64,000 bases of DNA from Chitinophagaceae bacterium (lineage in GTDB: Bacteria; Bacteroidota; Bacteroidia; Chitinophagales; Chitinophagaceae): the NCBI GenBank assembly GCA_004028765.1, contig SAIX01000107.1, forward strand, positions 62,001 to 126,000, given 5' to 3'. Below are positions 61,945 to 64,000 of this stretch, piece by piece. The stretch's first letter is position 1. Every line of letters starts with the position of its first letter. The notes below the pieces were generated by a model that searched no databases, was not told where the DNA came from, and worked only from the letters and a program-made list of their open reading frames with translations. The position numbers were made by a program, and so were the translations under genes.

Positions 61945-62865
61945 ATGTCTTTAGTTGTTGTCGGTTCAATGGCCTTTGATGCGATTGAAACCCCTTTCGG
62001 GAAAAGTGATAAAATCGTAGGTGGAGCCGGAACGTATATCGCCTGGTGTGCTTCCAACTTTACGCCTGTAAAACAGATTTCGGTAGTTGGTGGCGATTTT
62101 CCCCAATCTGAACTGGATGCCCTCGCCAATCGAAGAGTAAGCCTGGAAGGCGTCCAGATCAAAAAAGACGAAAAGACATTTTTCTGGAGCGGCCGTTACC
62201 ACATGGATATGAATACGCGGGACACGCTCGATACCCAACTGAATGTACTTGCCAATTTTGAACCCGTGGTTCCGGAAAGTTACCAGGACTGCGAATTCCT
62301 GATGCTGGGAAATTTACTGCCATCGGTACAATCAAGCGTGATCAGCCAACTGAATAAACGCCCGAAACTCATTGTAATGGATACAATGAATTTCTGGATG
62401 GAGACGATGATGGATGATCTCCGTAAAACCATTTCAATGGTGGATGTTTTGATGGTGAATGACAGCGAGGCAAGACAACTCAGCGGCGATTATTCGCTCG
62501 TTCGTGCGGCTTCCACCATTATGAAAATGGGCCCCAGATACCTGATCATTAAAAAAGGGGAACACGGGGCACTGCTGTTCCACGAAGACAAAGTTTTCTT
62601 CGCACCTGCGCTGCCATTGGAAGAAGTGTTTGACCCCACCGGCGCCGGTGATACTTTCGCGGGCGGCTTTATCGGCCATATTGCCAAAACGGGTGATATC
62701 TCTTTTGAGAATATGAAAACCGCGATTATCGTGGGAAGCGCCATGGCTTCTTTCTGTGTGGAGCGTTTCGGAACAGAGCGTTTGCGTGCCATCAGCAAAG
62801 CAGATATCGATGGCAGGCTGTCTGACTTTGTGCAACTGGTAAACTTTGATATCTCACTGGTATGA
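61945..62865 (+). CDS. PfkB family carbohydrate/nucleoside kinase
   Basis: A 306-residue ribokinase-fold enzyme. The N-terminal VVGSMAFDAIETPFG and GGAGTYIAWCASNF are typical, and the C-terminal signature DPTGAGDTFAGGFIGHI includes the catalytic Asp and anion hole. VLMVNDSEARQLSG forms the middle motif. The sugar or nucleoside specificity cannot be read; adenosine-kinase-like and sugar-kinase-like members look similar. The start at MSLVVVGSMAFD follows a TAACTTCG at 61913-61920, a one-mismatch -7 box. Confidence 0.92.
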   Translation: MSLVVVGSMAFDAIETPFGKSDKIVGGAGTYIAWCASNFTPVKQISVVGGDFPQSELDALANRRVSLEGVQIKKDEKTFFWSGRYHMDMNTRDTLDTQLNVLANFEPVVPESYQDCEFLMLGNLLPSVQSSVISQLNKRPKLIVMDTMNFWMETMMDDLRKTISMVDVLMVNDSEARQLSGDYSLVRAASTIMKMGPRYLIIKKGEHGALLFHEDKVFFAPALPLEEVFDPTGAGDTFAGGFIGHIAKTGDISFENMKTAIIVGSAMASFCVERFGTERLRAISKADIDGRLSDFVQLVNFDISLV

Positions 62866-62917
62866 TCGCTGAAAACCGCGTAAACACTAACTCCCGTTAG
62901 CGCGGATGAAAAATAGT

Positions 62918-62949
62918 TTTGGTGAAACTGCACACAGGTAATATTTTCG
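62918..62949 (+). promoter_or_regulatory. Promoter of the asd leader, TTTG-N20-TATTTTCG
   Basis: TTTG at 62918-62921, a 20-base spacer, and TATTTTCG at 62942-62949, one mismatch from TAnnTTTG. The predicted transcription start is near 62955, essentially at the leader peptide start codon. Confidence 0.6.
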
Positions 62950-62956
62950 CACCGCA

Positions 62957-63001
62957 ATGATGACAATGAAACATACAAAACGTAGCAAGAAACCTCTCTG
63001 A
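62957..63001 (+). CDS. asd leader peptide, 14 residues, rich in Lys, Thr and Met
   Basis: ATG at 62957 to TGA at 62999-63001 encodes MMTMKHTKRSKKPL. Nine of the 14 residues are Met, Thr or Lys, the three amino acids made through aspartate semialdehyde. It lies a few bases after a good promoter match and directly before mutually exclusive hairpins that end in an intrinsic terminator. This is the layout of an amino-acid-sensing leader peptide, in which ribosome stalling at scarce Lys/Thr/Met codons would decide read-through into asd. The reading is from sequence only. Confidence 0.7.
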   Translation: MMTMKHTKRSKKPL

Positions 63002-63074
63002 CGGGAAGTGCTTTACGTTTGTGTGTATACCATAATACTGAAAGCCTTCCCGAAACGGAGGGCTTTTTCTTTTT
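62978..63074 (+). promoter_or_regulatory. Transcription attenuator of asd (strands 1 to 4)
   Basis: Strand 1, AAACGTAGCA (62978-62987, inside the leader peptide), can pair with strand 2, TGCTTTACGTTT (63009-63020). Strand 2', GGGAAGTGCTTT (63003-63014), overlaps it and pairs with strand 3, AAAGCCTTCCC (63041-63051), with one bulged T. Strand 3 otherwise pairs with strand 4, GGAGGGCTTT (63057-63066), as a terminator. A ribosome stalled on the Lys/Thr codons would cover strand 1, free strand 2 for strand 3, and prevent termination. Confidence 0.65.
63041..63074 (+). terminator. Intrinsic terminator in front of asd
   Basis: A 10-bp stem AAAGCCTTCC / GGAGGGCTTT (one G-T pair) with a 6-nt loop, followed by TTTTTCTTTTT. 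It ends 50 bases before the asd start codon. Confidence 0.8.
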
Positions 63075-63123
63075 AGAATTCATCAGACAAAACCATAAAA
63101 AAACAAACCATAAACCCAAAAAA

Positions 63124-64000
63124 ATGAAAGTAGCCGTAGTAGGTGCCACTGGCCTGGTAGGCACCAAAATGTTGCAGGTATTAGCCGAACGTAATTTTCC
63201 TGTTACCGAAATTGTTCCGGTAGCTTCCGAAAAATCGGTTGGTAAAGAAGTTGAATTCAAAGGCAAAAAATACAAAGTGGTAAGCATGACCGATGGGATT
63301 GCTGCCAAACCTGCCGTGGCTATTTTTTCTGCGGGTGGAAGTACTTCGCTTGAGTGGGCGCCCAAATTTGCAGAAGCGGGTATCACGGTTATCGATAACT
63401 CTTCCGCATGGCGTATGGACCCCGCCAAAAAACTCGTGGTGCCTGAAGTAAATGCGGAAGTGCTTACAAAAGAAGACCGCATCATTGCCAACCCGAACTG
63501 CTCAACCATACAGATGGTGGTGGCATTGCAGCCGCTGCATAAAAAATACCAGATCAAACGCGTAGTGGTAAGCACTTACCAAAGCGTTACCGGAACCGGT
63601 AAAAAAGCCGTTGACCAGCTCTTTAATGAAAGAAAAGGGGCAGAAGGAGAGATGGCCTATAAATACCAGATCGATCTGAACGTAATTCCGCAGATCGATG
63701 TGTTCCTCGACAATGGCTATACCAAGGAGGAAATGAAAATGGTGAAAGAAACCTGTAAGATCATGCAGGATGATTCGATCCGTGTTACGGCTACCACCGT
63801 TCGTATCCCGGTAGTGGGCGGACACAGCGAAAGCGTGAACGTGGAATTTGCCAATGATTTTGACCTGGCAGAAGTAAAAGAAATCTTGCGCAACGCACCC
63901 GGTGTGATCGTGCAGGATGAACCTTCAGAAGCTTTATACCCGATGCCATTGTGGGCACATGAAAAAGATGAAGTATTTGTTGGCCGTTTGCGCCGCGATG
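63124..64000 (+). CDS. asd: Aspartate-semialdehyde dehydrogenase (partial, runs off the window)
   Basis: 292 codons are present from MKVAVVGATGLVGTKML, with no stop before the window edge; a full enzyme is about 330 residues. The Rossmann motif GATGLVG, AIFSAGGS, the VIDNSSAWRMD segment, the catalytic Cys in NPNCSTIQM, and the acid/base His in GGHSESVNVEF are all visible. It reduces aspartyl phosphate to aspartate semialdehyde, the branch point to lysine, threonine and methionine. It is preceded by a leader peptide and attenuator. Confidence 0.95.
   Translation, partial: MKVAVVGATGLVGTKMLQVLAERNFPVTEIVPVASEKSVGKEVEFKGKKYKVVSMTDGIAAKPAVAIFSAGGSTSLEWAPKFAEAGITVIDNSSAWRMDPAKKLVVPEVNAEVLTKEDRIIANPNCSTIQMVVALQPLHKKYQIKRVVVSTYQSVTGTGKKAVDQLFNERKGAEGEMAYKYQIDLNVIPQIDVFLDNGYTKEEMKMVKETCKIMQDDSIRVTATTVRIPVVGGHSESVNVEFANDFDLAEVKEILRNAPGVIVQDEPSEALYPMPLWAHEKDEVFVGRLRRD

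Follow-up and report, generated by a model that had tools for sequence, protein, structure and literature searches.

A conserved candidate lysine attenuator before asd in Chitinophagaceae

Described attenuators and the asd leader

In the attenuators of the threonine (thrL), histidine and tryptophan operons of enterobacteria, a short peptide carries codons for the end product of the pathway, an antiterminator strand is located at its stop codon, and a terminator precedes the structural gene. The leader before asd that is described here resembles these attenuators in its peptide codons, in the position of the antiterminator at the stop codon and in the placement of the terminator. It differs from them in that it carries lysine codons, precedes the single gene asd and has its promoter almost at the start codon, and in that the codon strand pairs beyond the antiterminator strand, which sits in its loop. 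The general mechanism of attenuation has been described (PMC1183508), and leader peptides were, according to a paper from 2010, then known from Proteobacteria and Actinobacteria only, to which the Firmicutes were added (PMC2965389). RNA-based control by lysine is known in the form of the L-box riboswitch (PMC1262725).

Among the open-licence papers in PubMed Central, no leader-peptide attenuator for lysine, asd or dapA was found. The nearest idea in print to a lysine leader-peptide attenuator is SEP5 of S. meliloti, a small ORF proposed to be a possible leader peptide, which contains six Thr and three Lys codons and lies in the 5'-UTR of a gene for an 'aspartate dehydrogenase' (PMC10117765). 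In contrast to the asd leader, SEP5 belongs to another phylum, is conserved in Sinorhizobium only and is presented in the relevant part of that paper with no attenuator structure; the same source describes S. meliloti trpL as also leaderless (PMC10117765). The LEU element of Actinobacteria likewise combines a leader peptide with a candidate pseudoknot, but it concerns leucine, and its base stem is formed between the run of codons and a Shine-Dalgarno box (PMC1262725).

The first-pass annotation of this DNA, made with no literature search, knew of no asd attenuator described in Bacteroidota. None was found in the open-licence PubMed Central papers, although leader-peptide attenuation is already suspected in the phylum, since 'strong clues' for it were reported before amino-acid biosynthesis operons of Flavobacterium psychrophilum (PMC9723704). 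The statement in that paper names no gene, peptide or amino acid, and the words 'lysine' and 'asd' are absent from its main text. In B. thetaiotaomicron, sORFs resembling leader peptides have been noted (PMC7366714). Two RNA motifs also need to be mentioned. The Bacteroid-trp motif RF01692 is a Bacteroidetes RNA motif named for trp (PMC2864571), which gave no Rfam match at the asd leader, and the asd RNA motif RF01732 of Lactobacillales is, like the present leader, located before asd, but it belongs to another phylum and its model had no match here. Lastly, 'attenuator-like sequences' of S. mutans asd are named by title in the reference list of PMC2864571.

Layout and conservation of the leader

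The window, by which we mean the whole stretch of 64,000 nucleotides that was analysed, ends within asd for aspartate-semialdehyde dehydrogenase (63124-64000, running past the window end), which was identified with the NCBIfam model TIGR01296 asd_B (383 bits, cut-off 324.2). This enzyme is common to the synthesis of lysine, threonine and methionine. The nearest named relatives of this asd are Chitinophagaceae records and Sediminibacterium roseum (91-92% identity). Since the next long ORF 3' of asd is encoded by the opposite strand, asd is probably transcribed as a single gene.

Direct reading of the sequence confirmed the promoter, the 14-codon peptide and the terminator 50 bases before asd that had been reported in the first-pass annotation; all features are on the + strand. 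The promoter (62918-62949) consists of TTTG at 62918-62921, 20 nt, and TATTTTCG as the -7 element at 62942-62949, and it matches the Bacteroidota promoter type (TTTG / TAnnTTTG). Promoters of the E. coli sigma-70 type were searched for in 62866-63140, where none was found and 0.6 were expected. The leader peptide MMTMKHTKRSKKPL (62957-63001) starts with the ATG at 62957, 7 nt 3' of the -7 element, occupies codons 62957-62998 and ends with the TGA at 62999-63001; alternative starts are possible at 62960 or 62966. It contains the Lys-Lys codon pair AAG AAA (62987-62992). Strand A (62971-62984), which lies within the peptide codons, pairs with strand C (63014-63026) in a duplex of -13.0 kcal/mol. 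Strand B (CGGGAAGTGCTTT, 63002-63014), the predicted 5' strand of the antiterminator, adjoins the stop codon and pairs with strand D (63040-63052) in a duplex of -18.8 kcal/mol. Strand D is common to this antiterminator and to the intrinsic terminator, which it forms with strand E and its T-run (63056-63075). The terminator stem (63040-63050 with 63057-63067) has 11 pairs, a loop of 6 and a T-rich tail to 63075, and lies 50 nt 5' of the asd start. Two overlapping terminator-like sites were found in 62866-63140 versus 0.2 expected from shuffles, and the leader (62957-63070) folds with a z-score of -4.05, none of 200 shuffles being as stable.

To place these features in context, asd was found in 143 of the 147 genomes of the family Chitinophagaceae, and 130 of the 143 upstream regions were read, 11 full-length low-identity matches, one partial and one weak match being left out. 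A filter for a terminator and a B-like strand in the asd upstream region kept a leader in 93 of these 130 regions. Together with 22 named loci this gave 115 leaders, of which five identical ones were dropped to leave 110, and removal of the near copies L139, L159, L009 and L011 left 106 (90 from the family and 16 named). These 106 aligned leaders (alignment A1) were used to build the covariance model R1. R1 found matches in 98 of the 147 family genomes at E up to 1e-4, 94 of them at asd; the other four (G094, G099, G101 and G136) matched elsewhere than asd only. One leader, that of G049, was thereby added to the 93 kept by the filter, and neither the filter nor R1 found a leader in 36 of the 130 regions. 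It should be noted that the R1 matches before asd are not independent, because the model was built from those same leaders.

Among 80 named loci fetched by asd similarity, 23 had an R1 match before asd at E up to 0.01. Named loci with an asd leader include Sediminibacterium roseum (L002), Limnovirga soli and Niastella yeongjuensis (L013). No R1 match was obtained for a Sediminibacterium MAG (L045) or for the loci named Mucilaginibacter, Pedobacter, Flavobacterium, Dyadobacter and Hymenobacter, a few of which had little upstream DNA. When 298 genomes of the order were searched with R1, all 60 genomes matched at E up to 1e-6 belonged to the Chitinophagaceae, and two genomes of the same genus (G717 and G754) gave no match at this threshold.

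The peptide frame is strongly preserved among the 106 leaders. A start codon is present in this frame in all of them (1 and 7 in the other frames), and all have an in-frame stop codon within -6 to +13 nt of the start of strand B, as opposed to 6 and 6 of 106 in the other frames, this range having been taken from the same data. The entropy at codon positions 1, 2 and 3 was 0.52, 0.91 and 1.21 (permutation p-value of 0.014), and differences between near-pair leaders, which are not independent pairs, numbered 753, 1553 and 2950 at these positions. Judged by this comparison, the leader peptide is selected as a peptide and is predicted to be translated. A lack of conservation of the peptide or of the pairings in relatives had been named in the first-pass annotation as evidence that would speak against the attenuator reading. 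Both turned out to be conserved, and the leader before asd is a real and conserved element.

The promoter has kept its position as well. A full -7 element precedes the leader start in 94 of the 106 relatives (1.7% of shuffles), and of 102 leaders, 93 have a TTG at the -33 place, as opposed to 14% of shuffles. None of 92 leader-bearing family regions has a -7 element between the terminator and asd, and 24 of the 38 regions counted without a leader have one at most 70 nt from asd; in this split, the 38 include L131, although it has the same leader as L128. This placement of the -7 element with and without a leader makes it very likely that asd is transcribed from the promoter of the leader. The peptide would thus start at the 5' end of the transcript or a few bases after it. 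The near-absence of an untranslated leader had been called unusual in the first-pass annotation. The promoter lies almost at the start codon, and mRNAs that are leaderless or have a very short leader are uncommon in Bacteroidota, with reported shares of 5.5% (PMC9723704) and about 3.7% (PMC7366714).

Alternative pairings and ribosome geometry

As RNAalifold on alignment A1 recovered only the terminator and not A:C, the pairings were assessed by pair counts and by partner swapping. For A:C and B:D together, 82.6% of the cells in A1 were paired versus 77.8% in shuffles, with 94 versus 38.9 double changes and a covariation of 0.204 versus 0.142; none of 500 shuffles reached these values. B:D was the firmest, with 90.7% of cells paired. 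Within A:C, the 5' half of strand A was paired with its partner in 83.2% of cells and the B-side half in 68.2%, one pair of the latter being unpaired in 60 of the 106 leaders. D:E was paired in 89.1% of cells with a covariation of 0.321 versus 0.215. When the partners were slid by 1-3 columns, the paired cells fell to 39.8-58.6% in the A:C and B:D count and to 35.6-71.5% in the D:E count. All these pair counts are inflated by the relatedness among the leaders.

In the segment-based swap test, each strand was compared with its own partner and with the mean of the other leaders' partners (2000 permutations). The own partner was better in 96 of 106 leaders for A:C (-11.47 versus -8.13 kcal/mol), in 90 of 106 for B:D (-14.70 versus -12.67 kcal/mol) and in 99 of 106 for D:E (-17.98 versus -14.89 kcal/mol), and no permutation reached any of these differences. 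Control pairs had p-values of 0.29 and 0.091. By eye, strands B, D and E change together in L008. B:D and D:E share strand D and are mutually exclusive, and each is supported by the counts as well as by partner swapping. The alternative pairings proposed in the first-pass annotation are therefore conserved, but not as the plain chain 1:2, 2:3 and 3:4 in which they had been drawn, since the relatives support A:C, B:D and D:E.

In a classical attenuator, strand 2 pairs with both strand 1 and strand 3. Here, A:C and B:D cross, because B lies in the A:C loop; in the window, B borders on C, and D follows C after 13 nt. Directly after C is made, P(A:C) exceeds 0.5 in 70 of 104 leaders. Once D is complete, nested folding with no ribosome clearly favours neither pairing, with a mean P(B:D) of 0.44 and a mean P(A:C) of 0.30. 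A:C may act as a hairpin that holds B when no ribosome is present, as a pause hairpin, or as a pseudoknot stem together with B:D. The peptide tail (CCTCTC) also pairs with B in the fold of the window sequence, which would sequester B when no ribosome is present, but this pairing is not significant in the swap test (p-values of 0.073 and 0.43; 103 to 106 leaders).

The linker between C and D (63027-63039) is A-rich in the window and in the 106 leaders, with CATA in 52 of 106 (15.7 expected) and ATAA in 80 of 106 (42.5 expected). Linkers of this type were also seen by eye in some of the His and Thr leaders described below. The motif could be a pause signal or a pseudoknot loop.

The position of the lysine codons relative to strand B was then considered. 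Two adjacent positions outside strand A hold Lys in 93 and 89 of the 106 leaders, with both Lys codons in use, and the distance from the end of the second of these codons to B is 8-15 nt in 104 of 106. For modelling, the ribosome was assumed to cover the RNA from 12 nt 5' to 15 nt 3' of the first base of its P-site codon, and the RNA was folded up to the end of D for 104 leaders (93 at the first of the tested positions). With the A site anywhere from eight codons before the second Lys up to the second Lys, the mean P(B:D) was 0.79-0.82 (0.80 at the second Lys), and with the A site one, two or three codons past it, the mean fell to 0.59, 0.14 and 0.01. The codons of the Lys pair are thus the last ones at which a modelled stall leaves B free. 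In the window, the antiterminator fold has -18.3 kcal/mol at the second Lys (62990) and -8.0 kcal/mol one codon further on (62993). With the modelled footprint, B is covered by a ribosome that has reached the stop codon. On this model, the codon-to-B geometry is what a lysine stall sensor requires.

Altogether, we consider it probable (about 0.8) that transcription of asd is attenuated here by a ribosome-mediated mechanism which responds to lysine supply. The original proposal of such an attenuator before asd is supported by the conserved peptide frame and pairings; the comparison of relatives supports the frame, the placement of the stop and of the codons, the B:D, D:E and A:C pairings, and the promoter position. 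From this and the modelled geometry we infer that the ribosome stalls, in which direction the switch responds, that lysine is what it senses and what A:C does, as follows. Transcription would start a few bases before the peptide, and a ribosome would load at once and trail RNA polymerase. When charged lysyl-tRNA is scarce, the ribosome would stall on a Lys codon with its front edge just short of B. Strand B would then be free to pair with D as D emerges, the D:E terminator would be blocked, and asd would be transcribed. When lysine is ample, the ribosome would reach the stop codon and cover B, D:E would form, and transcription would end near 63074. With no ribosome, A:C would form and may hold B back, which would favour termination.

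Amino acid signal and competing explanations

The first-pass annotation had proposed sensing of Lys, Thr and Met. Lys makes up 26.1% of the residues in the 106 leader peptides versus 13.3% in base shuffles (1.97-fold) and Thr 13.0% versus 9.4% (1.38-fold), while Met, with the start codon excluded, makes up 2.2% versus 1.3%. Composition by itself is a weaker argument, since any A-rich stretch will yield the residues whose codons start with A (Lys, Thr, Met, Ile and Asn). R1, although trained on asd leaders only, also matches leaders before other genes. In the family genomes, eight matches away from asd had E < 1e-6, seven before dapA and one before an aminotransferase of uncertain kind. Between 1e-6 and 1e-4 there were one asd, one lysA (MSLITSIKTIKTKKPYLYG), one aspartokinase (MQIKKHNKMMKCITRR), three hisG and three non-leaders. 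One dapA, the lysA and the aspartokinase were named by NCBIfam models above cut-off and six dapA by N-terminal fragments. All seven dapA leader peptides have at least three Lys, and two (L255 and L256) have no Thr. Models of two dapA leaders and of the lysA and aspartokinase leaders, made without a control, have the attenuator layout. The leader before the aminotransferase (L257 in G094) is the Lys-rich MTRKLHKSKKHLPNR; none of the NCBIfam models listed for this gene reached its cut-off, and the product is possibly a lysine-pathway enzyme.

Outside the family, the 23 matches read in the class, mostly the strongest ones (strong matches in G454, G363 and G530 being left out), comprised 12 asd, four thrA, two Cys-type, one hisG, one pheA and three non-leaders. 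As L231 repeats L230, these include 11 distinct asd leaders, 10 of which are new to R1, since L226 is identical to L028 of the training set. They have 4 to 7 Lys each, and 9 of the 11 have no Thr.

In the present genome, no such leader was found before dapA, lysA or the two monofunctional aspartokinases, either by eye in 330 nt or as an R1 match, so that asd has the only lysine-type leader found there. Its hisG is preceded by a His leader of similar layout, MKSFTHKHHHHFLPRG (L213, contig C49:22027-22156), with no Rfam match at gathering score, and its thrA by a Thr/Ile-rich ORF (L268). Since hisG leaders carry His codons and thrA leaders Thr/Ile codons, the leader codons appear to follow the product of the gene. 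Further His leaders precede hisG in L234, L258, L261 and L264; the A:C, B:D and D:E layout is similar in the three of these five His leaders that were modelled, with a weak A:C in L261. In another family of the class, L236, L242, L246 and L248 have Thr/Ile-rich leaders of the MTINNTTIITIITTGKYFGGK kind before thrA. In L243, a prephenate dehydratase-like gene is preceded by a Phe/Tyr-rich ORF, MNTTTKYFFFNYFYFKQ, and a terminator. L247 and L240, judged by eye, show two tandem Cys-rich leaders, each with its own terminator-like hairpin behind it, before a peroxiredoxin gene and a nitrite/sulfite reductase-like gene. The R1 matches L212 and L214-L220 of this genome, as well as L237, L244, L245, L249, L262, L263 and L265, were set aside by eye as gene-end terminators or unrelated sequences.

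Lysine is the best-supported signal, and the sequence comparison points to it as the main one, because the Lys pair is conserved at the switch edge, lysine-branch genes carry such leaders and the asd leaders of other families keep Lys. The Lys part of the earlier proposal thus stands, with Thr as a plausible second input, and Met was dropped, given its share of 2.2% versus 1.3% in shuffles. A competing reading is that the same attenuator has two inputs, a stall on either Lys or Thr codons causing read-through for the step that both branches share. Thr occupies one aligned position in 84 of the 106 leaders and another in 54, and at least one Thr is present in 100 of the 106 peptides. This would fit such a sensor, as would the location of the window's Thr codons 5' of the last Lys, in the range where B stays accessible in the stall model, and the service of asd to both branches. 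However, the remainder at these positions is mostly Ile, Asn or Ser, and also Lys; the first of these Thr codons is part of the paired strand A as well; the asd leaders of other families mostly lack Thr; and the enrichment of Thr over shuffles is smaller than that of Lys. We rate the dual sensor at somewhat below even odds, and threonine may be a second input in this family.

The remaining explanations would dispense with lysine or with attenuation altogether. As B remains free in any modelled stall up to the second Lys, the leader might report any slow-down of translation on a basic peptide, with read-through that is not specific for an amino acid. This is improbable, as the strong matches outside asd in the family are those before dapA and the aminotransferase, the weaker ones include lysA, aspartokinase and hisG, and leaders of similar layout have His codons before hisG and Thr/Ile codons before thrA. 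Structural conservation upstream of a biosynthesis gene would also fit a ligand-binding riboswitch with an incidental ORF. Yet Rfam 15, which includes the lysine riboswitch, amino-acid leaders, the asd RNA and Bacteroid-trp, had no match in the window at gathering score; the only match in 14 leader-bearing loci was a tRNA; and a relaxed search of 62000-64000 gave five matches, all below gathering, among which were two Phe_leader matches (23.1 and 20.5 bits; cut-off 55). Moreover, conservation tracks the codons and the reading frame, and we regard a riboswitch as very improbable. The least credible alternative, to be given hardly any weight, is that an ordinary terminator of the upstream kinase-like gene happens to follow a chance ORF. 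Terminators between genes on the same strand are common, and several weak R1 matches in this genome are gene-end terminators, but the frame, stop codon, strand B and promoter are conserved together in 106 leaders, by eye even where the upstream DNA differs.

The lysine attenuator, as read from these comparisons, would work like a classical one, and what is new about it would be that its peptide carries lysine codons, that it starts almost without a leader and that its antiterminator strand is enclosed by another pairing. A broader view can be offered only tentatively, at somewhat less than an even chance: Bacteroidia may have a common near-leaderless attenuator layout, in which the codon strand finds its partner on the far side of the antiterminator strand, possibly forming a pseudoknot, and in which the codons are exchanged to sense Lys (asd, dapA, lysA and aspartokinase), Thr/Ile (thrA), His (hisG), and perhaps Phe/Tyr (pheA) and Cys. 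If this were true, the lysine version would be the first lysine sensor read by a ribosome, and before asd perhaps a Lys-plus-Thr one. About a hundred leaders with the last Lys codon at the modelled switching edge would provide a natural test of ribosome geometry. A conserved lysine attenuator at asd, dapA and lysA would extend leader-peptide attenuation by one amino acid, and would suggest that attenuation is widely used in a phylum with little described RNA control.
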